Shown: positions 9,661 to 31,995 of the stretch, in pieces | Layout of the letters: every line of letters starts with the position of its first letter | How positions within the stretch are numbered: position 1 is the first letter of the stretch | Assembly (NCBI GenBank): GCA_945860405.1 | Contig: CAMARC010000006.1 | Span: forward strand, 1 to 37,745 | Length of the DNA: 37,745 nucleotides | Direction: 5' to 3' | Origin: Candidatus Kuenenia stuttgartensis | GTDB lineage: Bacteria; Planctomycetota; Planctomycetia; Pirellulales; UBA1268 | Program-made: the position numbers and the translations under genes | Notes under the pieces: model-generated | Seen by the model: the letters and a program-made list of their open reading frames with translations, nothing else | Databases searched by the model: none | Told to the model about the DNA's origin: nothing

Positions 9661-9701
9661 TCGAAGGTGCCTTGGCCCGGTCGTGACCGATGCCGCCCGG
9701 A

Positions 9702-12981: not shown

Positions 12982-12994
12982 GGCGTGGACGGCT

Positions 12995-13049
12995 CTTTCC
13001 GGGGTGGACAGCGTGAACAAAAGCCATGGATGCCTTTGTCGCCGGAAAG
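12995..13049. promoter_or_regulatory. Inverted half-sites CTTTCCGG ... CCGGAAAG in the hpnC/ispH divergent intergenic region
   Basis: Perfect 8-bp arms at 12995-13002 and 13042-13049 in the 133-bp divergent gap. Confidence 0.45.
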
Positions 13050-13114
13050 CTAGGATATCCGGTTCGCCTCCTGCCTGCCCCCCCGCTCCCGTCAATTCCA
13101 GCCTGGAACGCACG

Positions 13115-14065
13115 ATGAAGATCCTCCTTGCCGGCCCCCGCGGTTTCTGTGCCGGTGTCAACATGGCGATCGAGACGCTGGAGACGGCGATCCGCATTCA
13201 CGGCACCCCGATCTACGTCTATCACGAGATCGTCCACAACAAGCATGTTGTCGATCGGTTCGTGCGCGAGGGGGCGGTGTTCGTCGATCGGGTGGAGGAA
13301 GTGCCTGAGGGTGCGGTGCTGCTGTTCTCGGCACACGGCGTCGCTCCGGAGGTCCGGCGGGTTGCGGCCGAGCGCCGGCTTCTGGCGATCGATGCCACCT
13401 GTCCCCTCGTGACGAAGGTTCATCTCGAAGCGATCAAGTACGCCAAGAGCGGTCACCGCATCGTGCTCATCGGTCACGAGGGGCACGACGAGGTGATCGG
13501 GACCATGGGGCAGGCGCCGGAGGCGTTCACGCTCGTCGATTCCCCGGAGGAGGTCGACGGCCTCACCTTCGGCCCGGACGATCGTCTCGCCTATCTGACC
13601 CAGACGACGCTCTCCGTCGACGACGCTTCCCGGATCATCACCCGCTTGAAAGCCAGGTTCCCCCAGATCGTCGGCCCGCCGAAGGATGACATCTGCTACG
13701 CCACTCAAAACCGCCAGGAGGCCGTCCGCACCCTCGCCGATGACGCCGATGTCGTGATCGTGCTGGGAAGTCAAAACAGTTCAAACAGCCAGCGGCTCGC
13801 CGAGCTCGCCCGCGAACGGGGCATTCCTTCCCATCTCATCGATGGTGCCAACGAGATCGACGCCGGCTGGTTCCGTGGCGACGAAACGGTGGTCATCACC
13901 GCGGGGGCGAGCGCCCCGGAGAGCGTTGTCCAGGATTGCGTCCGCTGGCTCCAGGAGCGCTACCAGGCGACCGTGGAAGAGCGATCGATCCGCGAGGAGG
14001 ATGTCTATTTCCCTCTCCCGAAGGAACTCCGCTCAGGGACGGCCTCACGGCCCCAGAACTCCTGA
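13115..14065 (+). CDS. ispH: 4-hydroxy-3-methylbut-2-enyl diphosphate reductase
   Basis: MKILLAGPRGFCAGVNMAIETLE, VYHEIVHNKHVVDRF, VLLFSAHGVAP, DATCPLVTKVH, YLTQTTLSVDD, DICYATQNRQEAV, GSQNSSNSQRL, ITAGASAPESVV. Confidence 0.98.
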   Translation: MKILLAGPRGFCAGVNMAIETLETAIRIHGTPIYVYHEIVHNKHVVDRFVREGAVFVDRVEEVPEGAVLLFSAHGVAPEVRRVAAERRLLAIDATCPLVTKVHLEAIKYAKSGHRIVLIGHEGHDEVIGTMGQAPEAFTLVDSPEEVDGLTFGPDDRLAYLTQTTLSVDDASRIITRLKARFPQIVGPPKDDICYATQNRQEAVRTLADDADVVIVLGSQNSSNSQRLAELARERGIPSHLIDGANEIDAGWFRGDETVVITAGASAPESVVQDCVRWLQERYQATVEERSIREEDVYFPLPKELRSGTASRPQNS

Positions 14066-14093
14066 TCCGACGCCTCGAACGGCCATCAGGGCT

Positions 14094-15767
14094 TCAGTGC
14101 TGGAGCTTCTTGTAGCGGAAGCGGTGGGGCTCGTCGGCAGCCATCCCTTGACGCTCGCGGCGGTTGACTTCGTACGCCTCGAAGTTTCCCTCGCAGACGT
14201 GGACGTAGCCGTCTCCCTCGAAGGCGATGATGTGGGTGGCCAGGCGATCGAGGAACCACCGGTCGTGGGTGATGACCACCACCGATCCGGCGAAGCTCGT
14301 GATCCCTTCTTCCAAGGAACGGAGCGTGTCGACGTCGAGATCGTTGGTCGGTTCGTCGAGCAGGAGGAGGTTGGACCCAGCGCGGAGGAGTTTCGCGAGA
14401 TGGACGCGGTTGCGTTCACCACCCGACAGCGTCCCGACCTTCTTCTGCTGGTCTGGCCCCTGGAAGTTGAACTTGGCGACGTAGCTGCGGGCATTCACGG
14501 TCCGCTTGCCGAGTTCGATCGTGTCGTGGCCGCCGGAGATCTCCTCGAACACCGTCTTGGCAGGATCGAGGGCATCGCGACTCTGGTCGACATAGCCGAT
14601 ATCGACGGTGGGCCCGACACGGAGCGTGCCTGAATCGGGCTTCTCCTGGCCGACGAGCATCCGGAAGAGCGTCGTCTTGCCGGCGCCATTGGGGCCGATG
14701 ATGCCGACGATCCCGCCGGGGGGGAGGCGGAAGGAGAGGTTTTCAAACAGGACCTTGTCGCCGAAGGCCTTGGAGAGCCCCTCCCCCTCGATGACGAGAT
14801 CGCCGAGCGAACGGCTGGCCGGGATGAAGATTTCCACCTCGGAATCGCGGGTGGCGGCCTGCTCGGCGGCCAGTTTTTCGTAGGAAGCGACCCGGGCCTT
14901 GCTCTTGGCCTGCCGCGCCTTCGGCGACATCCGGATCCACTCGATCTCCTTGTCGAGCGTCTTCTGGCGGGCGCTGGCCTGCTTCTCCTCGAGTTCGAGA
15001 CGGGCCTTCTTTTGGAAGAGCCACGACGAGTAGTTCCCCTCGAAGGGGATTCCCCGCCCGTGATCGACCTCGAGGATCCACTTCGCGACGTTGTCGAGGA
15101 AGTAACGGTCGTGGGTCACAGCGACGACCGTGCCGGGATACTCGGCGAGGTGCTTTTCGAGCCAGTCGACGCTCTCGGCGTCGAGATGGTTCGTCGGTTC
15201 GTCGAGGAGGAGCATGTCGGGGCGCTCGAGGAGGAGTTTGCACAGCGCCACGCGCCGCCGCTCGCCGCCGGAGAGGTTGGTCACCTCCCAGTCACCAGGA
15301 GGGAGGTTCATCGCGTCCATCGCGATCTCCACCTGCCGATCCAGATCCCAGGCCCCGCGGGCCTCGATCTGGTCTTGGACCGCCGCCTGCTCCGCCAGCA
15401 GCTTTTCCATCTCCTCCGGCTCCATCGGCTCACCGAGCCGGGCGTTGATCGCCTCGAAACGGGCCAGGATCGCCCGCGTCGGCGCGACCGCCTCCATGAC
15501 GTTCTCGAACACGGTCTTCGTCGTGTCGAGCTTCGGCTCCTGCTCGAGGTAGCCGGCGGTGTAGCCATCGGCGAGGCGGGTCTCCCCCTCATATTCCTTG
15601 TCGATGCCCGCCATGATCTTCATGAGCGTGCTCTTCCCGGCGCCGTTGCGGCCGAGGAGTCCGATCTTCGCCCCCGGATAGAAGGCGAGGTTGACGTTCT
15701 TGAGGAGTTCCCGCTGTCCGAACTTCTTGGTCAGGTCGGTGATCTGATAGATGAAGGCGGCGCCCAT
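14094..15767 (-). CDS. ettA: ABC-F protein, energy-dependent translational throttle EttA
   Basis: Two ABC cassettes ([26 protein letters not shown]), two LSGGE signatures, ABC-F linker; N-terminus [34 protein letters not shown] is EttA-like. ATG at 15767. Confidence 0.95.
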
Positions 15768-16012
15768 CGGGAAGTCTTCTGTACGGAGGGGTGGGATCGC
15801 GGCCGGGCCGCGGGCAGGAGGGATCGCCCATGATACCACCCCTGGCCGGAATCGTGGACGGCGCCACCCGCGCATCCCCCCGGCCGCCGGAGCCGCTGAT
15901 GATCGTGGTGGCGGGGGGCTGATGGACTGCGGCATCCCCATCCACTACGATTCCCGCGGCGGCATCGATCCGAGGTCGCCGCCCCCAGAAACGGCGAGGA
16001 GAATCCGAATCC

Positions 16013-16882
16013 ATGGCTGGCTACGCGAATCCCGAAGTCCTTGTGAGCACCGAGTGGGTGGCCGAGCACGGCCACGATCCGAAGGTGCGGATCGTCGAAT
16101 CGAACGAGGACCGGGCGCTTTACACCCAGGGGCACGTGGCCGGCGCTGTCGAGATCGACTGGCAGGTCGACCTCCAGGATCAGGTCAGGCGTGACTACGT
16201 CGACCGGGCCGGGTTCGAGAAGCTCTGCCGCGACAACGGGATTTCCAACGACACGACCGTCGTGTTCTACGGCGACAAGAACAACTGGTGGGCCTGCTAC
16301 GCGTTCTGGGTGTTCAAGCTCTACGGCCATCCCGATTGCCGGATCATGAACGGCGGCCGGAAGAAGTGGCAACTCGAGGGACGGGCTTGGTCGACCGACC
16401 GTCCTGATGTGAAGCCCGGACACTACACGGCCCCCGAGCAGGATGGCTCGGTGCGTGCCCTCCGCGACGAAGTTCTCAAGCATCAGAAGGGGGGAAGGCC
16501 CCTCGTCGACGTCCGCTCGCCCGAGGAGTATTGCGGCGATCGGCTCCACATGCCCGACTATCCCAACGAGGGGGCGCTCCGTGGCGGCCACATCCCCGGC
16601 GCCGTCAACATCCCCTGGCCGCTGTCGGTCAACGACGATGGCACATTCAAGTCGGCCAAGGATCTCGAGAAGCTCTACGTGAAGGGGGCGGGGCTAAAGC
16701 GTCGCTCCCCCACGATCGCCTATTGCCGGATCGGCGAGCGGTCGAGCCTGACGTGGTTTGTCCTCACCTTCCTCCTCGGATTCGCGAAGGTGAAGAACTA
16801 CGACGGATCGTGGATGGAATGGGGCAACTGCGTCGGGGTGCCGGTCGTCAAGGGAACCACCCCCGATGGCTCGCCGGCGTGA
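16013..16882 (+). CDS. Thiosulfate sulfurtransferase (tandem rhodanese)
   Basis: [36 protein letters not shown]; active-site loop [15 protein letters not shown]. Confidence 0.94.
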
Positions 16883-16976
16883 CTGGTGGCACGCACGAAT
16901 GCTGTGCCGCCGCTGGGGCGCCACCGTCTGTTTTTTTCGATTGATCGAACCGAATCCGTTTTCCTGAACCGCCTTC

Positions 16977-17426
16977 ATGAGCACCGTCGCCCACCGGATC
17001 GATTCGATTGTCGAGGACTTCGCCGACCTCGAAGGGCGGGAGAAACTCGAACTCCTCCTCGAGTTTGCCGCCCGGCTTCCCGCGCTTCCTCCCCACATCG
17101 CGTCGCAGCGTGCCAGCGGTGACCACCGCGTCCACGAGTGTCAGACGCCGGTCTATCTCTGGCCGGAGCTGACTGCCGACGGCGCGAAGCTCCACGCCGA
17201 GGTCGCGGCCGAGGCTCCGACGGTGATGGGATTCGTCGCCATCCTCGCCGAGGCCGTCGATGGCCGTCCTGTCGACGAGGTGCTGATGATCCGCGACGAT
17301 CTCCTCGAGCGGATGGGATTGGCCCAAGTGCTCGGGATTCTCCGCACCCGCGGCCTGCGGGCGATTCTTGGCCATATCAAGCGTGGGCTGCTTGCCGCCT
17401 CCACCCCCCTGAAGGATTCCCCATGA
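16977..17426 (+). CDS. sufE: SufE family Fe-S/sulfur acceptor protein
   Basis: DFADLEGREKLELLLEFAARLPALP...VHECQTPVYLWPEL (acceptor Cys) and MGLAQVLGILRTRGLRAILGHIK. Confidence 0.92.
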   Translation: MSTVAHRIDSIVEDFADLEGREKLELLLEFAARLPALPPHIASQRASGDHRVHECQTPVYLWPELTADGAKLHAEVAAEAPTVMGFVAILAEAVDGRPVDEVLMIRDDLLERMGLAQVLGILRTRGLRAILGHIKRGLLAASTPLKDSP

Positions 17427-18433
17427 CCCGCGGTGTCGTCGCCGGTATCGATCTCGGGGGAACGGCCATCAACTACACCTTCCTCGATTCGGCTGGGCGA
17501 TTCCTCATCGAAGGTCTCTGCGAGCATCCCGCCCGGAGCGTCGAAGGGCCTGATGTCTGCCTCGCGCAGATCGTTGACGGGCTTGCCATCGCCGCCGGCC
17601 GAGCGGGACTGGACCTGTCCGACGTGGCAGCGATCGGCCTGGATACCCCCGGCCCGGCCAGCGCTGACGGCGTGCTCAGCCGCCGGGGCTCGACGAACTT
17701 CGCCCACGCCGCCTGGGCCGGCTTCGACATCCGCTCAGGCGTCTCCACCCGGATAGGCCTTCCGGTCACCTACCTCAACGACGGCAACGCAGCAGCGCTG
17801 TGGGGCCATGTCGCCCTCTTCGGTGACGACTCCGAAGCCACGAGCGTCGCGGCGATCGTGGGGACCGGGCTCGGCGGCGGCGTGATCCATGGTGGTAGGG
17901 TCGTGGCAGGGAGACGCGGATTCGGTGGCGAGCTCGGCCATGTCCTCATCCCCTGGACGTTGATCCCCGGGATCGAGGGGATCGATCCGGCCTGCAATTG
18001 CGGAAGGACGGGAGATCTCGAATCGCTCTGTTCGCTGACGGCGATCCGCCGCACGATTCTTCCCTGGTTCCTCGCCAAGAACCCAGGGCACGAACTCGCC
18101 CGACTGGCTGATCCCGCCGAGGCCGCCAAGCGGGTCCGTGGGCTGGCGGAGCGCGGCGACGAGCTTTGCCGGGAGGTGTTCCGCGTGCAGGCCCGGGCCC
18201 TCGGCCTGTTCTTCGACGAGATGGTCAACGTGTTCGATCCCGACGCCCTGATCGTGGGGGGAGGAGCCGTCGAGACCAGCGCCGCCTTCCGCGATTGGTT
18301 TGTTGACGAGATCCGCCGGGGCATGCCGACCCAACGCGAGGAACAGGCCGGGATCCCGATCCATGTCATCCGTGACGGTGACACGGCCGGCGCCCGGGGC
18401 GCGGCGATTGAAGCGGCGCGGACGCTGGCCTGA
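17423..18433 (+). CDS. ROK family sugar kinase / glucokinase-like protein
   Basis: AGIDLGGTAINYTFLD, IGLDTPGPAS, LNDGNAAALWGH, IVGTGLGGGVIHGGRVV, GELGHVLIP, CNCGRTGDLESLCS; 4-bp ATGA overlap with sufE. Confidence 0.93.
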   Translation: MTRGVVAGIDLGGTAINYTFLDSAGRFLIEGLCEHPARSVEGPDVCLAQIVDGLAIAAGRAGLDLSDVAAIGLDTPGPASADGVLSRRGSTNFAHAAWAGFDIRSGVSTRIGLPVTYLNDGNAAALWGHVALFGDDSEATSVAAIVGTGLGGGVIHGGRVVAGRRGFGGELGHVLIPWTLIPGIEGIDPACNCGRTGDLESLCSLTAIRRTILPWFLAKNPGHELARLADPAEAAKRVRGLAERGDELCREVFRVQARALGLFFDEMVNVFDPDALIVGGGAVETSAAFRDWFVDEIRRGMPTQREEQAGIPIHVIRDGDTAGARGAAIEAARTLA

Positions 18434-18449
18434 TCCGTCCCCCTCTTGC

Positions 18450-18485
18450 CCGCTACGCCACCCGATCCCGCTACGCCACCCGATC
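18450..18485. repeat. Perfect tandem 18-bp duplication CCGCTACGCCACCCGATC x2 spanning the hpnH stop codon
   Basis: Read directly at 18450-18467 and 18468-18485. Confidence 0.92.
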
Positions 18486-19625
18486 ACAGGCCGGCTCGGC
18501 CGCGATCGCCACCGGCGACTGGCCAAGCACAGGAAGGGCATGGAGGCCGTTGGGCTGGACCCGGAGCGGGGCAGCAGGCGCTGCCGCGGGAAGCGGCGGC
18601 AGGGGCCGCTTCGGCGCCCCGAAAAGCGTCAGCCTGGCGGTGGCAAGAAGGCCCGCAAGCGAGCCGAACGTCGCCTCGACAGCGGCCGGTTCATATCCGC
18701 AGTGGACCATGCAATCGCCACATTTCGGATTGCCACTAGCCCGGCCGTAGTTAGCCCAACTCGTCTCCTCCATCAAGCCGCGGAAGCTCGTCGCATAGCC
18801 TTCGTCGAGGAGATAACAGGGCTTTTGCCAGCCGAAGAGGTTGTACGTCGGCGTCCCCCAGGGGCGGCATTCGAGATCCCAGTTCCCTTTGAGAAACTCG
18901 AGGAACACCGGCGACTGGTTGAACTTCCACCGCCGCGGAGCATTTTCGAGGATGCGGGCGAAGAGCGACTGGCTCCGCTGCCGCGCGAGGAAGTGCTCTT
19001 GGTCGGGAGCCTTCTCGTAGGAGTAGCCCGGGGAGATCATCATGCCCTCCACCCCGAGCGCCATCACCTCGTCGAAGAACCGCCGATAGCGGGCCGGATC
19101 TGCGTCGGTGAACAGGGTCGAGTTCGTCGTCACCCGGAATCCGGCCTTCCGCGCGGCCCGGATCGCGGCCACTGCCACGTCGTACACGCCGTCGCGGCAG
19201 ACGGCGTGATCGTGCTCCTCCTTCGGTCCATCGAGATGGACGGAGAAAGCCAGGTAAGGCGATGGCGTGAAGTGGGGGAGCATCTCCTCCAGCTTGAGGG
19301 CATTGGTGCACAGGTAGAGGTATTTCTTCCTGGCCACGATCCCGGCGACGATCTGTTCGATCTGCGGATGGAGGAGCGGCTCTCCTCCCGGGATCGACAC
19401 CATCGGCGCCCCACACTCATCGACCGCCTGGAAGCACTGCTCCGGCGTGAGGTGCGAGCGGAGAATCTCCGTCGGATGCTGGATCTTCCCACACCCACCG
19501 CAGGCGAGGTTACAGCGGAAGAGGGGCTCGAGCATGAGCACGAGCGGATAGCGATGATTGCCCCGCCACCGTTCGCGGAGAACATGCCGCACGACCGCGA
19601 TCATCTGCCCGACAGGAACGCTCAT
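18471..19625 (-). CDS. hpnH: Radical SAM adenosylhopene transferase HpnH
   Basis: PLVLMLEPLFRCNLACGGCGKIQHP (CX3CX2C), ECGAPMVSIPGGEPLLHPQI, YLYLCTNALKLE, SVHLDGPKEEHDHAVCRDGVYD, CGDCMVHCGYEPAAVEA. Confidence 0.96.
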   Translation of the reverse strand: MSVPVGQMIAVVRHVLRERWRGNHRYPLVLMLEPLFRCNLACGGCGKIQHPTEILRSHLTPEQCFQAVDECGAPMVSIPGGEPLLHPQIEQIVAGIVARKKYLYLCTNALKLEEMLPHFTPSPYLAFSVHLDGPKEEHDHAVCRDGVYDVAVAAIRAARKAGFRVTTNSTLFTDADPARYRRFFDEVMALGVEGMMISPGYSYEKAPDQEHFLARQRSQSLFARILENAPRRWKFNQSPVFLEFLKGNWDLECRPWGTPTYNLFGWQKPCYLLDEGYATSFRGLMEETSWANYGRASGNPKCGDCMVHCGYEPAAVEATFGSLAGLLATARLTLFGAPKRPLPPLPAAAPAAPLRVQPNGLHALPVLGQSPVAIAAEPACDRVA

Positions 19626-21790
19626 GCAACCTTCTCCCGAACCTGGCCCGCACGGCGGGCAGAGTGGATGCTCTCACTGGTGGGGGCCTCATCGGCATCG
19701 CCCATTCCCCGGGCGATCGACCACCGCCCCAGGGCCATGAGGGGGAAATAAACGCGGTACCAGTGGTAGCGGAGATAGAAGACCTTCGGGAAGCCGGTCC
19801 CGGTGAAGTTCTCTTCCTTCCAATCCCCGTCGGGCGTCTGGTGGTCGAGGAGCCACGTGACGCCGCGGCGGGCCTCCGGCGAACCGGCGTGCCCGGACGC
19901 GAGCAATCCGGCCAACGCCCACGCGGTCTGCGACGGGGTCGGCTCGCCACGACCGGCCAGGCTCGGGTCGGCGTAGCTGTCAGCCGACTCGCCCCACCCA
20001 CCGCAGGGCTGCTGGTGCGAGAGGAGCCACTCGGCCGCGGCACTGACGACAGGGTCGTCAGCGGACACGCCGACGGCCCGCAAGCCCTCGATCGCTTGCC
20101 ACGCGCCGTAGACGTAGTTGACCCCCCAACGCCCGTACCACGATCCGTCGGCTTCCTGCGAGCGCCGCAGGTAGGCCACCGCCCGGTCGACCGCCGGATG
20201 CCCGAGGCGATAGCCGATCCTTCCGAACGCCTCCAACACCCGACCGGCAAGGTCGGGGGAACTCGGATCGATCATCGCGTTGTGGTCGGCGAAGGGAACC
20301 TTGCAGAGGAGTTCGCAGTTGTTGTCCTTGTCAAACGCCCCCCAGCCGCCGTCAGAGTTTTGCAGGGCCTCGAGCCAGGGCCGGGCCCGATCGACCGCGG
20401 CATCCACCAGCGACCGCCGCCGCTGTGACGCCGCTCCCCCGGATCGCTCCCCCTCGCGCCACGTTGCCAGCGCGATGAGGACCATCGCCGTGTCGTCGAC
20501 GTCGGGGTAGAAGCGATTGGCATACTCAAAGCACCAGCCCGACGGGGCAACCGGGACGGTTCGCCGCGACCAATCTCCGTCGGTGCGGATCTCCTGCGAG
20601 AGCAGCCAGTCGACCGCATCGTCGAGAGCCTGATCGGAGTCGCCGGAATCAGCGTGATCGCGCCGGGCCAGACGGTCGACGGCAAGGGCCCGAAGGGTCA
20701 GGGCGGTGTCCCAGACGGGGGATCGGCAGGGCTCGATCCGCGTCGTTCCGTCCGCTTCGTGCTCGATGAGTCCTTCGAGTTGCCGCCAGCACTCGCGGAC
20801 CTCGGGGGCGTCTTCCGGGCACCCATAAGCCCGGAGGGCGACGATGCTCCAGAGGATCGGCGGGAAGATCGCTCCGAGCCCGTCACTCCCATCAAAGCGT
20901 TCGAGCATCCAACGGCGGCATTCGGCGACGGCGCGGCTGCGGAGAGGACGGAACCCGACCGCATCGCATCCCTTCAGGATCCGATCGACTCCGCGGAAGA
21001 ACCGGGCCCACCCGTCATCGCCGCCGAGGCGCCGCGCGTGAGGCGCCCGGGGTGAATCGGCAAACAATTCATCGATCCGCTGCTCGGGCGGGAGATGCCT
21101 GACAGGCTTGAAATCCCAGATCAAGGAGAGCGGAACGATCATCGTCCGCGACCAGGCCGAAACCCGGTGAAGATTGACGGGGAACCAGTCCGGGAGGAGG
21201 ACAATCTCCGGAGGCACCGCCGGGCAGTCGCCATACGACATCTGCCCGAGGAGCGCGAGGTAAAAGCGGGTGAAGCTGTTGACGGCCCACGGCCCCCCCG
21301 CCGCGGCGATCGCACGTCGCGCCCGCGTCATCGGCTCGGAATCGGGGGATTCACCGAAGATCTTCAGGGCAAAATAGGCTTTCACGCTGGCACTGACATC
21401 GACAGGGCCACCGCGGTAGATGGCCCAGCCCCCGTGGGGAAGTTGCTCGCGGAGGATCCGTCGCACCGCTCCGGCAACGTGCTCCCCTTCCAGGCGACCG
21501 TGCCAAGCAAGGATGAGGAGGTATTCGCTTTCGAGGATCGTGTCCCCTTCGAGCGGCCCTCGCCAGTGCCCATCGTCGGCCTGCCGCTGCCTGAGCCAGT
21601 CGGCGGTCGCGCTGCACGCCGGAAGGACCTCCGCCTCGGGAAACCGGCGCCGGGGTTGGCCCACGGGCGCAGGCCCTGCCGATTCGGAGGGACGACGGGA
21701 AATCATCTCCGCCTCGGCGTGGGCAGCCGACATCGGTTGGGAAAACCCTGTCTCGAACGCTGATCCTCTGTAGCTCATGGGGGCATCCAT
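19622..21790 (-). CDS. shc: Squalene-hopene cyclase
   Basis: DVDDTAMVLIAL catalytic DxDDTA; multiple QW-type repeats (LQNSDGGWGAFD, LRRSQEADGSWYGRWGVNYVYG, LLSHQQPCGGWGES, LLDHQTPDGDWKEENFTGTGFP). Start uncertain: ATG at 21790 or 21778. Confidence 0.97.
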   Translation of the reverse strand: MDAPMSYRGSAFETGFSQPMSAAHAEAEMISRRPSESAGPAPVGQPRRRFPEAEVLPACSATADWLRQRQADDGHWRGPLEGDTILESEYLLILAWHGRLEGEHVAGAVRRILREQLPHGGWAIYRGGPVDVSASVKAYFALKIFGESPDSEPMTRARRAIAAAGGPWAVNSFTRFYLALLGQMSYGDCPAVPPEIVLLPDWFPVNLHRVSAWSRTMIVPLSLIWDFKPVRHLPPEQRIDELFADSPRAPHARRLGGDDGWARFFRGVDRILKGCDAVGFRPLRSRAVAECRRWMLERFDGSDGLGAIFPPILWSIVALRAYGCPEDAPEVRECWRQLEGLIEHEADGTTRIEPCRSPVWDTALTLRALAVDRLARRDHADSGDSDQALDDAVDWLLSQEIRTDGDWSRRTVPVAPSGWCFEYANRFYPDVDDTAMVLIALATWREGERSGGAASQRRRSLVDAAVDRARPWLEALQNSDGGWGAFDKDNNCELLCKVPFADHNAMIDPSSPDLAGRVLEAFGRIGYRLGHPAVDRAVAYLRRSQEADGSWYGRWGVNYVYGAWQAIEGLRAVGVSADDPVVSAAAEWLLSHQQPCGGWGESADSYADPSLAGRGEPTPSQTAWALAGLLASGHAGSPEARRGVTWLLDHQTPDGDWKEENFTGTGFPKVFYLRYHWYRVYFPLMALGRWSIARGMGDADEAPTSESIHSARRAGQVREKVA

Positions 21791-21877
21791 GCTCCGAGCA
21801 GGGCTGTTCGACCGGCGGCGGTCCAAGAGCCAGGGCCCGCCGATCCACGGAGGGCGATCCTTCGCCGCGAACAAGAC

Positions 21878-21896
21878 TCTCCGCTGACAGCGGAGA
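21878..21896. repeat. Perfect hairpin TCTCCGCT-GAC-AGCGGAGA upstream of shc
   Basis: 8-bp stem, 3-nt loop in the HK-shc intergenic region. Confidence 0.75.
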
Positions 21897-22028
21897 ATAG
21901 GGAAACTCGGGAAGTCCCACAAGGTCCGCCGCGCTCCTTCGACGACGCTTGTGGGGCCGTTTTCTCCGCTTCCCGCCCCCGATCGAGCCGGGGATCACGC
22001 CGGGGGCTCTGCGGCAACTTTACTGGCA

Positions 22029-23624
22029 TCAACCTGGACGTTTGGGGGGCATAGGAAAGGCAGGCTGTTCTTTCCGAGGCGGGCGATCGTCGGAAACCAT
22101 TTTGGAAACAACGACCGGCGCAGCCCCCTGGCTCTCTGCCAGAGGCAGCCTGATCAACACGCGGGTGCCCCGGCCGGCGCGGCTCTCGATCTCGATGGTG
22201 CCACCATTGGCCTCGAGAAAACGCCACGCTTTGGAAAGCCCGAGCCCCGCACCACGCCCCGCTTCACGACCGCTGAAGAACGGATCGAAGACCCGGCGCA
22301 GCGTGGTCGATTCGATCCCAGGACCATCGTCAGAAACGATCAGATCGCAGTCTCCCAGGGTCCGGCCGGCCGCGACCGAGACGGTCACCCGGCCGCCTTC
22401 CCCGACGGCTTCGAGGGCATTGCTGACGACGGCACGGATCGCCTCCTCGACCTGCGAACGGTCGACCGCCACCGCCACCGGGGCCGGAGCCGGGCCGTAG
22501 TCGAGGCGAGCACATCGCTGCCCCGCCAAGGGAGCAAGGCGATCGATGACGGTGCTAACCATCTCGTGGATGTCCGTCGCCACGCGATGCGGACGGGGCG
22601 GCCTTGCGAACAACATCAACCCGCCGATCAGATCGCGGGCCCGGAAGGCCTGATCGACGATCGTCGAGAGCCGTCGACGTCGTTCCGGGTCGCGTTCGTC
22701 GAGGAGCAGCGTCTGGGCCCGGGTGGCGATGTTCGCCAAGGGGTTATTGATTTCATGCCCGGCTCCATAGGCGAGTTCGCGCATCGCCTCGAGGCGGGCC
22801 TCGCCGAGGGCATCCTGAAAGGCCAAGGCGAGGTGGACATGGTGGGCCGCGAGGCGAACCGTGCCGAGGAGTTCCCCCCCCTCCACCGAAAGCGTGGGGG
22901 GCTCCGGAATCCGCGACGCCGGGAGATCACCGGCCCGCAGTCGATCGGCCCAGACCTCTCCCTGGGCCGCCGGATCGGCTTCCGCCGGCCCCTGCGCAAT
23001 CCAGGCCAGCCAGGCCGATTCGTCGACATTGATTGCATCGCCGGGAAGAGGGCCCGACACCAAATCCCGGGCGAAGCTCACCAGCGGCACACTGCCCGGC
23101 CGACTGGCCCCAGGGCGGATTCGGGCCCACAACGCCCCGTCCGCCCCTGTGGGATTTCCGTCGCGGGCCTCCTCGGGCCCATCGGATGGGAGCAGACGGC
23201 CCCACAACCAGACCAGCGCCTCCGCCCCCGTCCCCGAAAGAGCGGCCACGGCCGGAGCGATTCCCCTTGCCGCTTCGCCGGCCACGGTGACAAGCCCCGG
23301 GATAGAAGCATTCGGGGCCGAGCCCGGTTCGCCCCGCCGTCGCCGCAGAGGGGCCCCTCCCAAGAGCTCGGCAACGCTCGCCTCAGCGGACGAAAGCCAC
23401 GGCCAGGTCGGCGACCGAGGCGCAAGCGAAGAAACTGCCTGCCCCCGAGATTCCGGCGCGAGGTCTGCCAGTGATCCCACGCCGGAGGCCGAGACGCCCG
23501 ATGCGGCCGCGAGCGCGGCCCGCGCCAGGCCCGGACAGGCCTGGCGCGGAACCGGCAACGCAAGAGTCGTCGAACGCCCCGGACGCACGATCAACCGCAC
23601 GCCGGACGAACGACCCTGCGACAC
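22029..23624 (-). CDS. Soluble (no obvious TM) sensor histidine kinase
   Basis: H-box MRELAYGAGHEINNPLANIATRAQTLL; VEEAIRAVVSNALEAVGEGGRVTVSV; VSDDGPGIESTTLRRVFDPFFSGREAGRGAGLGLSKAWRFLEANGG. Confidence 0.93.
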   Translation of the reverse strand: MSQGRSSGVRLIVRPGRSTTLALPVPRQACPGLARAALAAASGVSASGVGSLADLAPESRGQAVSSLAPRSPTWPWLSSAEASVAELLGGAPLRRRRGEPGSAPNASIPGLVTVAGEAARGIAPAVAALSGTGAEALVWLWGRLLPSDGPEEARDGNPTGADGALWARIRPGASRPGSVPLVSFARDLVSGPLPGDAINVDESAWLAWIAQGPAEADPAAQGEVWADRLRAGDLPASRIPEPPTLSVEGGELLGTVRLAAHHVHLALAFQDALGEARLEAMRELAYGAGHEINNPLANIATRAQTLLLDERDPERRRRLSTIVDQAFRARDLIGGLMLFARPPRPHRVATDIHEMVSTVIDRLAPLAGQRCARLDYGPAPAPVAVAVDRSQVEEAIRAVVSNALEAVGEGGRVTVSVAAGRTLGDCDLIVSDDGPGIESTTLRRVFDPFFSGREAGRGAGLGLSKAWRFLEANGGTIEIESRAGRGTRVLIRLPLAESQGAAPVVVSKMVSDDRPPRKEQPAFPMPPKRPG

Positions 23625-23686: not shown

Positions 23687-24274
23687 TCAGGAACCGGTAG
23701 CCACCGACTCGATGTCGAGCAGCGTGCAGATGCGATCGACAAGCACCTCGGCCTCGAACGGCTTCTGGAGGAATTCATTCGCCCCGGACGCCTTCAATTC
23801 CTCGATCTTGTCGGCTTCACACATGCCCGAGATGCAGATGATCCGCACCTCGTCCATGGTGGAGTCGCTCCGAACGCGTTGGCAAACTTCCTTGCCATTG
23901 ATGTCCGGGAGCATCACATCGAGCACGATCAGATCGGGACGGTAGTCCTTGACCATCATGCCGGCATCGAAGCCATTGTTGACGCTCCGCGTCTCGAAGC
24001 GGCCGTCCCGCTCGAGGACATCGGTGATCAACTCGACGAGATCCTGATCGTCGTCGACGACGAGAATCTTGCGACGGCCACTTTCGAGGGCGTCGGTCGG
24101 AATCCCGTTGTCCCGCATGAACAGGAACAACTGATCGCGGGGAATCCGCCGGAACCGGCTACCCGGCACCCGGAAACCCTTGAGCTGACCCGAGTCGAAA
24201 CAACGGATGATCGTCTGCTGGCTGACCTTACAGATCTTGGCAGCTTCACCGGTCGTGTAGACAGTCTTTTGCAT
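23687..24274 (-). CDS. HTH-REC response regulator: N-terminal excisionase/MerR-like helix-turn-helix fused to C-terminal receiver
   Basis: MQKTVYTTGEAAKICKVSQQTIIRCFDSGQLKGFRVPGSRFRRIPRDQLFLFMRDNGIP followed by ILVVDDDQDLVELI..DLIVLDVMLPDINGKEVC..ICISGM..GANEFLQKPFEAEVLV. Confidence 0.95.
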   Translation of the reverse strand: MQKTVYTTGEAAKICKVSQQTIIRCFDSGQLKGFRVPGSRFRRIPRDQLFLFMRDNGIPTDALESGRRKILVVDDDQDLVELITDVLERDGRFETRSVNNGFDAGMMVKDYRPDLIVLDVMLPDINGKEVCQRVRSDSTMDEVRIICISGMCEADKIEELKASGANEFLQKPFEAEVLVDRICTLLDIESVATGS

Positions 24275-24383
24275 GTGCTTGACCACCCTCTCCCTAGCCG
24301 TGGTGCAGCTAGTCGAAACGGCTTCCCGGGAAACGCCTCTTCCACAAAGGCCACCCCGGTCGCCTAGGCCTCCTTGTTGCCTG

Positions 24384-24409
24384 ATCAACGCGTTGCCACA
24401 TCAACGCGT
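24384..24409. repeat. 10-bp direct repeats ATCAACGCGT (24384-24393 and 24400-24409) upstream of the HTH-REC gene
   Basis: Read directly; 16-bp centre-to-centre spacing. Confidence 0.8.
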
Positions 24410-24819: not shown

Positions 24820-25473
24820 TCAGCCTGCCGCCTGGGGAACGACCACTTCGAGCAGCTCTACGGCTGGGTGGCCTCCGAGCGAGATTTCGGCGACGCGACC
24901 GTACGTCGGCGCCGACGGGACACCGGGAACGGGCAATCCCCCAAACAGGGACGCCAACCGAGGGCCCGGGCGGACTTCAAGCAGACTCACATCGTGGACC
25001 TCACGGAGGAGCCCGGCATTGATGAGCACCCGACCGAGGGGAATCCTGCCAGCCCGGATCGCCGCCGCCGTCGCCTCATCGACGTGGGCCAAATTGATGC
25101 GGACGATGCCGTATTGCACGAGAGCCCCTTGGGGCGACAGGAGAAGAATCTCCCTCGCATACCAGGGATTGTGGCCGTCGGTGGCCCCCAGGTCGCGGGC
25201 TCTGGCGACGACCCGGAGCCCGAGCGGGGCTCCGTAATGGGCCTCCATCGCCACCGTCATGTGGCGGGTGTGATCGAGGAGGGTCCGGGCGGGCTCGGGC
25301 ACCTCTCCGCGATCGACGCTCCGAAACGTTGCGAAACTCGGCCCTGGATCGGCAAACAGGCGAACCAGCTCGAGGGCCCGCGCCACGGCCCCCTCGCCCC
25401 CAGGCTCCCGCGACGGGGCTGAAAGAAGAACCCCCGGCAAGGCGGCCGGGGGGGCGCTGGGTTGGTCGGACAC
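24820..25473 (-). CDS. Chorismate pyruvate-lyase (UbiC/DUF98)-like protein
   Basis: RTLLDHTRHMTVAMEAHYGAPLGLRV resembles the UbiC/DUF98 LLxHxxxMTxTxExxxG motif; YAREILLLSPQGALVQYGIVRINLAHVDEATAAAIRAGRIPLGRVLINAGLL resembles the family's G.I.I.L..........I..G..PLG.IL segment. GTG start at 25473. Confidence 0.62.
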   Translation of the reverse strand: MSDQPSAPPAALPGVLLSAPSREPGGEGAVARALELVRLFADPGPSFATFRSVDRGEVPEPARTLLDHTRHMTVAMEAHYGAPLGLRVVARARDLGATDGHNPWYAREILLLSPQGALVQYGIVRINLAHVDEATAAAIRAGRIPLGRVLINAGLLREVHDVSLLEVRPGPRLASLFGGLPVPGVPSAPTYGRVAEISLGGHPAVELLEVVVPQAAG

Positions 25474-25607
25474 GTTGGCCTCCACCGGGCCGGGGCTTTG
25501 CGTTCGATCCCCGCACGGACGGTGGACCCGGCAACCTCCCGGCCACCGCTGTGGCAAGATTACGTCGCCGGATCGGACCGACGCAACCATCCCCCCCCGC
25601 GAACGAC

Positions 25608-27497
25608 TTAGCCGACGAGTTGGGCTGCTGCCCCCTCGGGAACGGCCAGATCGAGAAGAAACTCGAACACCTCGCGGAGCCGGGGCTGCCGGCATGTGGC
25701 CGCGGCGGCGAGGGCGCCGGCCCGTTCTGCATCGACGATATTCGCCGCCCGGGCGAAGACGTCGGCCGATCCGTAGAGCCGCCGGGCTGCGGCGATCACC
25801 TCGGCAGAGGAGGGGCCGCCCGGAAGCCTCGCCTCGTCGGCCAGACGGGAGAGTCGTTGCAGCTCCGCGGCGGGAACGCGTTCCCGTGCCAAGGCCCACA
25901 TCACCGTCGGTCGACCGCCGAGGAGGTCGCCGGCGGCGTGCCGGGCGTTCTCCGGATCGCCATGCCAATCCTTGAGATCGTTGAGCACTTGGAAGCCGAC
26001 GCCAACGTGCCGAGCGTAACGATCGATCGCCCCGGCCGCCGTCGGGAGGACGCCGGCCAGACGAACGCCGATCGACAGGGCCACCTCGAAGGCCGGCGAC
26101 GTCTTCAGGCCGTAGATGGCCAGTGCCTCAGGAACCGTGAGCGGCGTGTCGCGTGTGTCGCGCCACCACAATTCGGCCCCTTGCCCACGCGCCAGTCGCA
26201 CATGGGCCTCGGAAAGCATCGCCACTAGGTCGGCTCGGCATCCCGCATCGACCTCCGGCAGGGTGGCCATGATCCGGTAGCCGAAGCCGAGGAGATGGTC
26301 GCCGGTGTTGATGGCCACCGGAATCCCCACCTCTTCGTGGAGCGATTTCCTGCCATACCGCATCGCGTCAGCATCTTCGATGTCGTCGTGGATCAGCGAG
26401 GCTTTGTGGAACACCTCGACTGCCACCGCGGCGGCCCGGACGGCGGTCCGGTCGGCGCCGCCTCTTCCTGCGGAAACCTCATCCTTGGCCGTCAGGGCCT
26501 CAAACGATGCCAGAGTGATGAACGGGCGGAGGAACTTGCCGCCGCGGCCGAGGTAATCGGCGGCAAACCGTGCCGTGGAGACGAGCGGCTCAGGCCGCCC
26601 CTCCATCCAGTCGAGGGCGTCGGGCACCCCGGCCGTCGAGGCGATGCCACGGAGCGAGGCCGGCAGAAACAACTCGGCGGCTTCGCGGAGCAAAGGGAGA
26701 TGATCAGCAACTGGCGCCGTTTGCCCGCCAGCGACACCGAGCAGCCCCAAGACCCACTCGGCATCGAGCGCCGACCGCGACGCAGCCGAAGCGCACGCGG
26801 CACTGCCGCCGGCCGGTGTGTCGAGCGCTGTCACGCCCTGGGGATCGAAGGGGACGGCGGCGATCGGCAGGGCGAAGGCCGGCACGATGGCAAAAGCCTT
26901 CTCGAGATGCTCGAGCCGGGCGACGCCAAGGATACCGTCGTACTGTCCGGTGAGCAGGCCCCCGACACCGGCGACGGCCCGCGGCGTGGTCTCGACCACC
27001 CAGCCCTGCTCGCGGGCGGCTCCCCAGAGGGTGCCGATCACGCACCCTGGACCGCACAAATGCGGGGGGCGGGAGGCATCGGATTCTTGGGCGGGACGAA
27101 CCGCCATCGGGCAGTCGGGGAGCAGAAGGAGACGGCGGCCGCTGGAGCCGGCCGAGAGTTTGTCGCGCCAGTGCTCGGAAACGATCGTGACCATCGTCCA
27201 GCCGACATGGCTGGCCCCCGCTCCGCCGCGCTGGCAGAGGATCTCGGCCTGCGACCGGAGACCGGCCGCCGAACGGGCGCCGGCGGGCATCCCTCCCGAT
27301 CGCCACGAAGCGACCAGGTCGGCGGCCATCGCCCGAAGCCGGTCTCGGAGGGGCTTTTCGGCCGGGCAGGCAAGCCCCGCACCGCGACCGACCGCCGGTC
27401 GTGGCCCCTTGGCCGAGGGGTAGGCGATCGTTTCAGGCCGGTCAGCCGACAGGCCGGGAAGGTCGAGCGAGGGGGGATTGAGCACGGAAACAGCCAC
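25608..27497 (-). CDS. DUF116-like N-terminal domain fused to polyprenyl (trans-isoprenyl) diphosphate synthase
   Basis: N-terminus LLLLPDCPMAVRP...PHLCGPGCVIGTLWGAAREQGWVVETTPRAVAGVGGLLTGQYDGILGVARLEHLEKAF (DUF116-like); C-terminus GGKFLRPFITLASFEAL, HKASLIHDDIEDAD (DDxxD) and VGFQVLNDLKDWHGD. Confidence 0.85.
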   Translation of the reverse strand: MAVSVLNPPSLDLPGLSADRPETIAYPSAKGPRPAVGRGAGLACPAEKPLRDRLRAMAADLVASWRSGGMPAGARSAAGLRSQAEILCQRGGAGASHVGWTMVTIVSEHWRDKLSAGSSGRRLLLLPDCPMAVRPAQESDASRPPHLCGPGCVIGTLWGAAREQGWVVETTPRAVAGVGGLLTGQYDGILGVARLEHLEKAFAIVPAFALPIAAVPFDPQGVTALDTPAGGSAACASAASRSALDAEWVLGLLGVAGGQTAPVADHLPLLREAAELFLPASLRGIASTAGVPDALDWMEGRPEPLVSTARFAADYLGRGGKFLRPFITLASFEALTAKDEVSAGRGGADRTAVRAAAVAVEVFHKASLIHDDIEDADAMRYGRKSLHEEVGIPVAINTGDHLLGFGYRIMATLPEVDAGCRADLVAMLSEAHVRLARGQGAELWWRDTRDTPLTVPEALAIYGLKTSPAFEVALSIGVRLAGVLPTAAGAIDRYARHVGVGFQVLNDLKDWHGDPENARHAAGDLLGGRPTVMWALARERVPAAELQRLSRLADEARLPGGPSSAEVIAAARRLYGSADVFARAANIVDAERAGALAAAATCRQPRLREVFEFLLDLAVPEGAAAQLVG

Positions 27498-27670: not shown

Positions 27671-28984
27671 TCAGGAGGGAGCGTCAAAGAAGCGGGGGAG
27701 GAGGGCATCGACCATGAGGAGGCCCCGACGGGTGAGGACGGGGGCGGGACGGATCCGCTCCAGGCAGCCCTCCGCCTCGAGGCTTTGCCACTGCGGCGCG
27801 AACGCCTCGAGCGGATCGACGCCAAACTTCGCGCGGAGGCGTTCCACGTCGAGTCTGCCTTTTTTGAGGCCGAGGATCGTCTCGCGGATGAGAAGCTCAC
27901 GGGCCGAGGGCACGAGCCCGCGGGCGATCGGCAACCGCCCCCCTTCGATAGCGCCGAGGTAGTCGTCCCAGTGGGGGGCATTTTGGTAGTGGCAGCCAGA
28001 GAGATGGCCGAAGCTCGCCACGCCGAGCGCGAGGAGATCACTCCCCTCCCAGAGCATGTCGCGGTAGCGGAAATGGACCCGGGCAGGATCGCGGACGAGC
28101 GTGTAGCCGCTCGACACCGTGTACCCTGCCGCCACGAAGCGGTCGAACGCCCTCCCGACCCACTCCCGCTTGGTGCGCCAGTCGGCGACTGGCGTCGGAG
28201 CCCCGGTCTCGCGGGCGTCGTGGACGAAGGTCGTGTTGACGGGGAGCTCGAGCTGGTAGATCGTCAGACTGTCGGGCTCGAGGGCCAGCGTCCGGTCGAT
28301 CGTCCGATCCCAGCTCTCCGACGTCTCGCCGACCATCCCCGAGATCAGATCGATATTCGTATTCGGGAACCCGGCAGCTTTGATCCAATCCCAGCAGCGG
28401 AGGATCTCGGCGGAGAGATGGGCCCGGCCGTTGGCCTCGAGGATGGAATCCTCGAAGTTCTCCACGCCGAGCGAAAGCCTCGTCACGCCCAGCTCGCGGA
28501 GCGCCTTCACCTTCGGTTCCGAAAGCGTTCCTGGCTCGCACTCGAAGGTCACCTCCTCGGCATCATTCCAGCCGAAGCTGCGGTGGAGTCCGGCGACGAG
28601 CCGCTCGAGCTGCTTCACCGACAGAAACGACGGCGTGCCGCCACCGAAATAGACATAGCGGAGCGTGCGGCCGGCGACGGCTGGCTGGGCGGCGACGAGC
28701 TCCGCCTCGCGTGCGAGTCCCTGCGAGTAGCGTTCGACGTCGCTGGCTGAGGTGTCGGTGTAGACGCGGAAGTAGCAGAACTTGCACCGTTTCCGACAGA
28801 ACGGGACATGGAGATAGAGCCCCAGCGCCGCGTCCGTGGGGGCCGCGGCGAAGGCTTCGAGGACCGCCGGAACCGCCGCCGTCGCCCAGGAGGAGAAGGG
28901 GGGGTAGTTGGAGATGAAGTAGCTACCCGGTTCGGTCGATTCGATCTTCGATTCGGCCTTGGTCTCGATCTTCGTTTCGCTCAT
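27671..28984 (-). CDS. HemN/HemW-like radical SAM protein (coproporphyrinogen III oxidase family)
   Basis: LYLHVPFCRKRCKFCYFRVYTD (CX3CX2C), VYFGGGTPSFLSVKQLERLV, VTFECEPGTLSEPKVKALRELGVTRLSLGVENFED, NTNIDLISGMVGET. Confidence 0.9.
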   Translation of the reverse strand: MSETKIETKAESKIESTEPGSYFISNYPPFSSWATAAVPAVLEAFAAAPTDAALGLYLHVPFCRKRCKFCYFRVYTDTSASDVERYSQGLAREAELVAAQPAVAGRTLRYVYFGGGTPSFLSVKQLERLVAGLHRSFGWNDAEEVTFECEPGTLSEPKVKALRELGVTRLSLGVENFEDSILEANGRAHLSAEILRCWDWIKAAGFPNTNIDLISGMVGETSESWDRTIDRTLALEPDSLTIYQLELPVNTTFVHDARETGAPTPVADWRTKREWVGRAFDRFVAAGYTVSSGYTLVRDPARVHFRYRDMLWEGSDLLALGVASFGHLSGCHYQNAPHWDDYLGAIEGGRLPIARGLVPSARELLIRETILGLKKGRLDVERLRAKFGVDPLEAFAPQWQSLEAEGCLERIRPAPVLTRRGLLMVDALLPRFFDAPS

Positions 28985-29011: not shown

Positions 29012-30028
29012 TCAGGAGAGGCCGCGGGCGGCGAGGAGATCGTCGAAATCGCGAAGGTGGTAGGGAATCTTGACGCCGTCGAGAACGCGGCACAGGCCCC
29101 GCATCGCGATCCCCATGCCGTCAGGCCCACTCGTGCCACCAAACTGCCCGCCGCCACGGACATGGGGCTCGAGATCGAGAAACACGCCGGGGATGCCGCG
29201 GCGATCGAGGCGTTTGGTGAGGGCAGGGAGGAACGTCTTGAGATCGGCAAGGATTCGCTCGTGCCCCCCGACGCCCAGGTCGGCGGGGACGAAGTTCAAC
29301 AGCCCCCGCTCTTCGACATGCCGGCCCCGAACGCTGCCGGCCACCTTGCGATAATCCTTGATGTGCACCCAACCGAGGCCCGGCTTCATCGCTTCCCACT
29401 GCCGGAAGATCTCGGTGGGGGAGAATCCCTGAACGACGAGATTGGCGGCATCGAAGACGAGGACGAGGCCGGGATGATTGACCCGGCGATGGATCTCGGC
29501 GAGGAGGTGGCCGTCACGGCCGACGAGATTCGCCTCGACCTCGAGGCCGAAGGTGAGATCGGAGCGGTGGCAGGCCTCGGCGATCCGGCCGATGCGGTCG
29601 ACGGCCTCCTCCAGATACTCCTCGGGGCGGGCTCCCTTGGGGGGATAGAACGAGAACCCACGGATGAGCTTCGTCTCGAAGGCATGGGCCAGTTCACAGG
29701 CCCGGGCGACGTCCTTGGCGAGATACGTCTTGAAAGGCACGTAGGCGGTCTTCGTGCCGTCATCGACGTCGTCGAGCTTGACCTTCCCGATCGGGGAGGC
29801 AATCGAGGCGACGTTGAGCCCGTAGCGATCCTCGAGGTGCCGGATCTTCTGGATCTCCGTCACCGTCAGCTTCATGACGTTCTTCACCCCCTTGCCGACA
29901 TCGATGAACCGGAGCGAGTAATACTCGAGCCCTATGGCCGAGAGCGCCGTGAATTGCTCCACGGCGGTGAGGTCGAAAGCCGACTCATCGGCGAGCGCCG
30001 AGAGGAGGACGGGGCAGGCTTGGGCCAT
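29012..30028 (-). CDS. Sugar phosphate isomerase/epimerase-like TIM-barrel protein
   Basis: AP-endonuclease-2-like fold motifs: GLEVEANLVGRDGHLLAEIHRRVNHPGLVLVFDAANLV, GWVHIKDYRK, GVFLDLEPHVRGGGQFGGTSGPDG. ATG at 30028. Confidence 0.82.
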   Translation of the reverse strand: MAQACPVLLSALADESAFDLTAVEQFTALSAIGLEYYSLRFIDVGKGVKNVMKLTVTEIQKIRHLEDRYGLNVASIASPIGKVKLDDVDDGTKTAYVPFKTYLAKDVARACELAHAFETKLIRGFSFYPPKGARPEEYLEEAVDRIGRIAEACHRSDLTFGLEVEANLVGRDGHLLAEIHRRVNHPGLVLVFDAANLVVQGFSPTEIFRQWEAMKPGLGWVHIKDYRKVAGSVRGRHVEERGLLNFVPADLGVGGHERILADLKTFLPALTKRLDRRGIPGVFLDLEPHVRGGGQFGGTSGPDGMGIAMRGLCRVLDGVKIPYHLRDFDDLLAARGLS

Positions 30029-30121
30029 GGATGGGATTTCCCGGGGGGTGGTGCCGCGGTCCTGGGAGCCTGGCGCCGGTGGATCGGCCGGGAGCCGCAA
30101 CACTGACCGGCCGGGCGGTGC

Positions 30122-30514
30122 TCAGACAGAAGGGGGGAGATCGGCCCCGGAGGGATGCGAGACGACGATCCGCGACGAGATCCCGCCGCGGGGCGTGAAG
30201 TGGGCCACGAGGGTCATCCGCCGTGGGGCAACCACCGCGACGAGATCGTCGAGGATGCAGTTGGTGACGTTCTCGTAGAAGATCCCTTCGTTGCGGAACG
30301 CCTGGAGATACACTTTCAGGCTCTTGAGCTCCACGCACACCTTGTCGGGGATGTAGCGGAAGGTGAGCGTGCCGAAGTCTGGCTGCCCCGTCTTGGGGCA
30401 GACTGACGTGAACTCCGGGCAGATGATCTCGATGAGGTAGTCGCGCCCCGGGAAGCGGTTCTCGAAGACCTCGAGTTGGGCGCGGGAAGGCGAGGCGTGG
30501 ATGGGTGTTGTCAT
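30122..30514 (-). CDS. queF: NADPH-dependent 7-cyano-7-deazaguanine reductase QueF
   Basis: [78 protein letters not shown]. Confidence 0.97.
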
Positions 30515-30529
30515 AGGAGAGAGTGTGCC

Positions 30530-31267
30530 ATGAACGCGCCGCTTCCGAAAGCGGTCCCCCCGTCCCCGCCGGAAGGTTCCCGGGGAAAGATGGTCGTTCT
30601 CCTCTCGGGAGGCCTCGATTCGGCGACGGTGGCGGCCTGGGCCCGGGCCCGGGGCTATGAGGTGATCGGGCTGTCGATCGACTACGGCCAGCGTCACCGC
30701 TGCGAACTCGACGCCGCCAAGGCCCTCGCCTCCCACCTCGGCCTCGCTGACCATGTCGTGCTCCGGGTCGATCTGGCGGCGTTTGGCGGCAGCGCCCTGA
30801 CCGATGCCGCGATCCCCGTCCCCCGCGACCGCCCCGACGCGGCCCTCGCCGCCGAGATCCCCACGACCTACGTCCCGGCCCGCAACACCGTCTTTCTCTC
30901 CCTCGCCCTGGCCCTCGCCGAGGCCCGGGGGGCGACGGCAATCGGCGTCGGCGTCAACGCCATCGATTACAGCGGCTATCCCGACTGCCGGCCCGAGTTC
31001 CTCGACGCCTTCCGGCACCTCGCGGCGCTCGCCACAAAGGCGGGGGTCGAGGGGCATGCCCCCGAGATCGTGGCGCCGCTGGTCGACCTTACGAAGGCCG
31101 AGATCGTTGCCCTCGGTGTCGAGCTCGGCCTCGATCAGGGGCTGACGACGAGCTGCTACGACCCAGACGCTTCAGGCCGCCCCTGTGGCCACTGCGATTC
31201 CTGCCGGCTCCGCGCCGCCGGCTTCGCGGCCGTGGGCATCAACGATCCGCGCGCGGCGGGGAGCTGA
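30530..31267 (+). CDS. queC: 7-cyano-7-deazaguanine synthase QueC
   Basis: [82 protein letters not shown] zinc site. Confidence 0.97.
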
Positions 31268-31275
31268 CCGAAGCC

Positions 31276-31995
31276 GTGCGGATCGCCGAGCTCTACGCTT
31301 CGCTGCAGGGAGAAGGGCTGCTCGCCGGCACGCCGAGCACCTTCGTGCGGACCAGCGGCTGCAATCTCCGCTGCCACTGGTGCGACACCCCGTTCACCTC
31401 CTGGAAGCCGGTGGGGGAGGAGTGGTCGATCGACCGAGTCTGCACGGCCGTCGAAGCCCTCGGCGTGCCGCATGTCGTGCTCACCGGCGGCGAGCCGCTC
31501 CTCCCTGCCGACGCCGCCGATCTCTGCGCGGCGCTTCGGGAGGGGGGCCGCCACCTGACGATCGAGACGGCCGGCACGATCCTGCCGCCAGCGGCCGTCG
31601 CCGAGACGCTCGCCGATCTCCTCTCGATCAGCCCCAAGCTCGCCTCCTCCGCCCCTCCGCCCGACACCCCTGCCGGCTGGCACGCCCGCCACGCCGCGGC
31701 CCGGCGCCGCGACGACATCCTCGTGGCCATGCTCCGCGCGCCGCGCTGGCAACTGAAGTTTGTCGTCGGGTCGCGGGCCGATCTCGACGAGGTGCTCGTC
31801 TGGCTCGACGATCTCGAAGCGGCCCTCGGCCCGGGGAAGCTGCCGCGGGGAAGGGTGTTTGTGATGCCTGAGGGAACCTCCCCGACAGCCCTCCAAGCAA
31901 CAACCGCCTGGCTCGCCGCGGCCTGTGCGGCCGAAGGGCTCCGCCTCGCTCCCCGCCACCACATCGCTTGGTATGGCAACCGCCGCGGCACGTGA
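31276..31995 (+). CDS. queE: 7-carboxy-7-deazaguanine synthase QueE (radical SAM)
   Basis: RIAELYASLQGEGLLAGTPSTFVRTSGCNLRCHWCDTPFTSW; VVLTGGEPLL; GTG start 8 bp after queC. Confidence 0.96.
   Translation: MRIAELYASLQGEGLLAGTPSTFVRTSGCNLRCHWCDTPFTSWKPVGEEWSIDRVCTAVEALGVPHVVLTGGEPLLPADAADLCAALREGGRHLTIETAGTILPPAAVAETLADLLSISPKLASSAPPPDTPAGWHARHAAARRRDDILVAMLRAPRWQLKFVVGSRADLDEVLVWLDDLEAALGPGKLPRGRVFVMPEGTSPTALQATTAWLAAACAAEGLRLAPRHHIAWYGNRRGT

Follow-up and report, generated by a model that had tools for sequence, protein, structure and literature searches.

DUF116 is a cysteine-rich domain to which no function has been assigned in the literature that we found. According to the passages on this domain in Makarova et al. 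2015 (PMC5898192), its stand-alone form (arCOG02078/COG1852) has a CxxCxxC core and a proposed flavodoxin-like fold, and a role in electron transfer has been suggested from archaeal gene context. The same source mentions a DUF116-polyprenyl synthetase fusion, Psta_0175 of Pirellula staleyi, and therefore the fusion as such is already known. The gene analyzed here lies in a window of 37,745 nucleotides (the whole stretch of DNA under study) and shares with Psta_0175 the two-domain fusion and the bacterial group, but it has kept only four core cysteines out of seven, its genome encodes an intact copy as well, and its gene context is different. The passage on Psta_0175 makes no mention of eroded copies, of a link to radical SAM and cyclase genes, or of a pattern among synthase classes. 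Stand-alone DUF116 proteins lack a synthase, unlike the window protein, and the archaeal ones carry N-terminal membrane helices (PMC5898192); the stand-alone planctomycete homologues aligned in this study have seven core cysteines compared to four in the window copy. The synthase half resembles PF00348 proteins of the octaprenyl/heptaprenyl/solanesyl type in its fold, in a first aspartate-rich motif (FARM) of the DDxxD form without insertion, and in a small residue at position -5, but differs from them by NDLKD instead of DDxxD in the second motif (SARM), RYG instead of RRG, and the N-terminal DUF116 half. The fusion in the window is thus real and already known, here in a variant with fewer cysteines that is new, and its eroded relatives point DUF116 at a specific uncharacterized pathway. 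New in this study are the clade of four-cysteine copies, the co-occurrence of the intact domain with a radical SAM gene, and the distribution of synthase classes.

Our best explanation, to which we give an even chance, is that the window copy combines a long-chain prenyl synthase with a remodeled four-cysteine DUF116 domain, the remnant of a module from another pathway. It would be one protein with two parts of separate histories. The C-terminal half is predicted to be an active trans-polyprenyl diphosphate synthase with a product longer than farnesyl diphosphate (FPP), most likely a menaquinone side chain in the C30 range. The N-terminal half would descend from a seven-cysteine DUF116 domain, which in its intact form probably functions as a metal or redox module, Fe-S or other, for a radical SAM enzyme, in a pathway that would also include a class II terpene-cyclase-like protein. 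The window's own genome appears to encode this pathway together with an intact fusion on contig C8. The DUF116 half of the window copy would have been remodeled to four invariant cysteines and would no longer serve the radical SAM pathway, and the synthase half would have been kept as a general long-chain prenyl synthase.

Frame, domains and predicted structure of the window gene

A sequence-only reading had proposed that a DUF116-like half and a polyprenyl synthase are joined in one gene, and this was borne out by an uninterrupted frame of 629 codons with a GTG start and no internal stop (Table 1) and by orthologues of the same layout. All motifs that it had listed (DDIED, NDLKD, MRYGRKSLH, PDC and LCGPGC) were recovered. 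A join of two genes by frameshift, which it had raised as a counter-explanation, or an assembly artefact was rejected, because a 96%-identical protein (L053) is encoded in another genome of the genus and genes of the same type as the window copy occur in one conserved gene order in approximately 28 genomes of the family.

The synthase half matched PF00348 over residues 313–550 (E = 1.8e-40; 139 bits versus a cut-off of 27), and the N-terminal half matched PF01976 (DUF116) over residues 86–207 with E = 0.062 and 13.2 bits, below the gathering score of 25. Because of this score, the N-terminal half belongs to DUF116 by descent only, and taken alone the match would have failed as a DUF116 call. 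The call is rescued by fused orthologues with frames of approximately 600 amino acids, which match PF01976 with E = 1e-30 to 1e-41 and can be aligned with the window protein over their full length. The degenerate character ascribed to this half also held, as three of the seven core cysteines are lost, four are kept, and CxxCxxC has become CGPxC. In an AF2 model (mean pLDDT 84.5), the N-terminal half forms a Rossmann-like beta-alpha core and the C-terminal half the usual helical fold. Foldseek matched the protein to GGPP and polyprenyl synthases with E-values down to 6e-13; the matches listed were synthases only, with nothing for the DUF116 half.

The synthase domain has the features of long-chain prenyl synthases, namely Ala at -5 of a FARM without insertion. 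Position -8 is Phe, and none of the curated NCBIfam cut-offs was reached. The NDLKD motif had been noted as a departure from the usual form, as had MRYGRKSLH. Both are present but usual in the subfamily: NDLKD, common to nearly all order-type orthologues (defined below), occurs in 28 of 29 copies of the window type, and most order-type copies show NDLxD. NDLxD and xRYGxxTxH appear from these alignments to be the normal motifs of the fusion synthase subfamily and no defect, and the idea that NDLKD marks a loss of activity was rejected on the grounds that the motif is a family trait.

Table 1 Features of the window around the fusion gene (window coordinates)
Feature	Position	Strand	Remarks
HpnG-like, HpnE/HpnD/HpnC, EttA, HpnH and squalene-hopene cyclase genes	8914..21922	(+) and (-)	hopanoid cluster: HpnG-like (+); HpnE/HpnD/HpnC (-); EttA between; HpnH and squalene-hopene cyclase (-)
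HpnH adenosyl-hopene transferase	18471..19625	(-)	over cut-off
Squalene-hopene cyclase	19622..21922	(-)	over cut-off
Histidine kinase	22029..23624	(-)	conserved in the cluster of the window-type copies
HTH_17 + receiver-domain regulator	23687..24388	(-)	conserved downstream of window-type copies
Weakly chorismate-lyase-like protein (Rv2949c/UbiC type)	24820..25590	(-)	directly downstream of the fusion; start codon uncertain; kept in window-type and order-type loci
DUF116-polyprenyl synthase fusion, W type (629 aa)	25608..27497	(-)	supported by frame, Pfam and orthologues
Trans-polyprenyl synthase domain, ~residues 306-629	25608..26582	(-)	FARM DDIED, SARM NDLKD
DUF116-derived core, ~residues 119-255	26733..27143	(-)	four invariant cysteines: C129, C148, C152, C235
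HemN-like radical SAM protein	27671..28984	(-)	directly upstream; conserved by window-type copies and in some order-type loci
Xylose-isomerase-like TIM barrel	29012..30103	(-)	conserved upstream of window-type copies
QueF-type, QueC and QueE genes	30122..31995	(-) and (+)	QueF-type (-), QueC and QueE (+); diverging from the fusion cluster

Spread of the fusion and loss of cysteines

The taxonomic distribution of the fused architecture, which had been suggested as a check, revealed orthologues across Pirellulales and the fusion across Planctomycetia. When 99 genomes from the window's order were searched with the DUF116 profile, 71 gave matches, nearly all in frames of approximately 600 amino acids and in two score classes (~1e-35 and ~1e-3 to 1e-8). 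Named relatives are Planctomycetota (Blastopirellula, Rhodopirellula, Rubripirellula, Gemmata, Isosphaera and many MAGs), and a wider sample of the phylum contained both fused and stand-alone DUF116 forms. The stand-alone proteins of other families (L090–L118) are approximately 155 amino acids long and have seven core cysteines.

Three fusion types were distinguished by the core cysteines of stand-alone DUF116 (positions 116, 123, 134, 137, 140, 182 and 210 in the numbering of homologue L070). Order-type (O) fusions have all seven plus one more. The C type, a paralogue, has the full seven and occurs in the window's family and two other families of the order, and the window's genome encodes one on contig C8. 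The W type, to which the window copy belongs, was found in the window's family only (29 sequences); cysteines 116, 137, 140 and 210 are kept in all 29 copies, and 123, 134 and 182 are lost. W and C each formed one clade in the tree, the rooting of which is unsure owing to long branches.

With dN/dS of 0.20–0.26, near the 0.08–0.23 of the synthase, the W-type DUF116 core appears to be constrained and under purifying selection. These values of approximately 0.2 and the four invariant cysteines led us to reject a plain pseudodomain. A model of two clusters of four cysteines was unsupported, as two other copies (L034, L077) lost different cysteine sets. Additional eroded copies were also found: all core cysteines are gone from the eroded fusions L205 and L214, the whole domain is deleted and the synthase kept in L206, L209 and L210, and the core is deleted within the C-type copies L208/L217, L212 and L213. 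Synthases without the domain occur in genomes G076, G090 and G092 and as the C-type copies of G002, G008 and G021; the copy of G044 was excluded from the deletions because it stops at a contig end. Erosion and deletion amount to five changes on the synthase-domain tree. Such copies are a natural experiment that separates DUF116 from its fused enzyme.

Co-occurrence of the intact domain with radical SAM and cyclase-like genes

Across the 99 genomes, the intact DUF116 fusion and a NirJ/HpnH-like radical SAM gene agreed in 93 (40 with both, 3 with DUF116 only, 3 with the radical SAM gene only and 53 with neither), and the intact fusion and the cyclase-like gene in 88 (40, 3, 8 and 48, respectively). 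None of the 28 genomes with only degenerate copies had the radical SAM gene, and two had the cyclase-like gene. The loci of the three radical SAM genomes without intact DUF116 are incomplete or at a contig end. Two near-complete genomes, G063 and G084, have intact DUF116 without the radical SAM gene. Plain Fisher values ignore kinship; of the independent pairs, only three are on branches with good support, and although these almost always all point in the predicted direction, they are too few for significance. We take the evidence as good, but not phylogenetically proven, that intact DUF116 works with a radical SAM/class II cyclase pathway and is dispensable for the synthase.

The sequence-only reading had also seen the fusion as a functional lead for DUF116. 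Such a lead exists, but it points away from prenyl-chain elongation, as synthases are retained despite erosion or deletion of DUF116, and the distribution of the intact domain matches another pathway: domain loss follows the absence of the radical SAM gene and not of the synthase, which directs the lead to the radical SAM/cyclase pathway. This bears on the idea that DUF116 senses redox state or metals and, in every copy, controls its fused synthase in cis. The invariance of the four cysteines in 29 W copies, selection on the W core like that on the synthase, and the fusion of the domain in all order-type copies that have DUF116 would suit a sensor, but we consider it unlikely given the domain-free synthases listed above, the way in which domain loss follows the absence of the radical SAM gene, and the stand-alone DUF116 proteins in the phylum.

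Gene neighborhoods

Most O copies are flanked on one side by a squalene-hopene-cyclase-like gene with a DxDDT motif and on the other by a small, weakly chorismate-lyase-like gene (PF01947, E = 0.005). Recurrent neighbors are genes for a HemN-like radical SAM protein, a GcvH-like protein that includes the lipoyl-lysine region, a ferredoxin-type protein (2[4Fe-4S]), and another radical SAM protein nearest to NirJ/HpnH-type models. C copies have most of these neighbors plus a CobW-like GTPase, a toroid prenyltransferase-like protein and a NifS-like enzyme. On contig C8 of the window's genome, the seven-cysteine fusion is clustered with radical SAM, ferredoxin, CobW-like, toroid and DxDDT cyclase-like genes (L054, 5535–14053). 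W loci have retained the HemN-like and chorismate-lyase-like genes, the DxDDT cyclase-like gene is absent from them, and downstream come the regulator, the histidine kinase and squalene-hopene cyclase, with HpnH as well in some loci. QueC and QueE also lie near some order-type fusions (L065). In three further loci (L218, L219, L220), the cyclase-like and chorismate-lyase-like genes are neighbors without an intervening fusion gene, and the genome lacks the NirJ/HpnH-like radical SAM gene.

These partners may outline an undescribed isoprenoid pathway of Planctomycetia, which we propose tentatively and with somewhat less than even confidence, in which DUF116 would be the dedicated metal/redox partner of the radical SAM step. 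Its putative members are the prenyl synthase with intact DUF116, the DxDDT class II cyclase-like protein, the HpnH/NirJ-like radical SAM protein, a two-cluster ferredoxin, the GcvH-like carrier and often the chorismate-lyase-like protein. On loss or relocation of the pathway, the synthase would be kept for quinone synthesis, and DUF116 would be reduced to four cysteines or deleted. DUF116 would in this way obtain a named set of partners (radical SAM protein, ferredoxin, GcvH-like carrier and class II cyclase-like protein) and, if the proposal is true, a phylum with unusual membranes would have a new class of cyclized lipid.

Alternatively, the fusion synthase could make GGPP or GFPP for the cyclase-like protein, and W would be a leftover without a new housekeeping role. 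The DxDDT gene directly adjoins the fusion gene in order-type loci, and Phe at -8, which might cap the product at approximately C20–C25 and leaves the exact chain length open, would agree with such a product. This explanation is improbable, however, in view of W loci without the cyclase-like neighbor, the absence of that gene from 26 of the 28 degenerate-only genomes, and the purifying selection that nonetheless acts on W in 29 copies.

Prenyl synthase classes and candidate product

In the preferred explanation, W is a long-chain synthase; against this speaks its location, which is inside a cluster of hopanoid genes and away from menaquinone genes. W as an FPP synthase feeding squalene and hopanoid synthesis would accord with the HpnC, HpnD, HpnE, squalene-hopene cyclase, HpnH and HpnG-like genes of the same window and with the squalene-hopene cyclase gene that follows W in many loci of the family. 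We disfavored this role, now quite improbable, after an IspA-type FPP synthase over the curated cut-off was found on contig C73 of the same genome (NF045485, 289 versus 275 bits). By comparison, W scores 84 bits against this model, lacks an FPPS-type FARM and has a small residue at -5, and genome G014 holds an IspA-type synthase by motif, with W as its only other synthase. Ala at -5 of the FARM fits a longer product, as established by mutagenesis of FPP synthases.

Long-chain synthases of the octaprenyl/heptaprenyl-like class (L202, L203) occurred in 23 of the 99 genomes, but in none of the 60 genomes of the window's family. In other families of the order, all 12 scored genomes without the order-type fusion had this class (Fisher p = 4e-4, from a hand-entered table); G085 and G098 were left out of the scoring, since the fusion site falls at a contig end. 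Ten order-type genomes carry both the fusion and a long-chain synthase, and hence the two products need not be equal. Five genomes of the window's family hold just an FPP synthase and W, two of the W-only genomes being near-complete (G014, G031); in the five, no trans-synthase other than W was seen that could build the menaquinone chain. Futalosine-pathway menaquinone genes were present in 58 of 59 genomes, all 13 genomes scored for UbiA prenyltransferases encoded them, and the quinone of Gemmata strains is MK-6 (PMC10817699). A third prenyl synthase class was observed in some genomes of the family (L199, L200, L201, L225), with a first motif of the LHAGSLVxDDFED type and a second of the NDxDE kind; it could also make a long chain, which weakens the argument for W in the genomes that have it. 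If W does supply the quinone, the menaquinone-chain synthase would have been replaced in one family.

In G064 and G073, genomes of other families, the octaprenyl-like synthase has a neighboring regulator that is 37% identical to the regulator beside W. This fits the replacement of the long-chain synthase by W, but the regulator could be a paralogue. The HTH_17 and receiver-domain regulators beside octaprenyl-like synthases lie at 6726–7445 in locus L227 and at 11039–11767 in locus L228.
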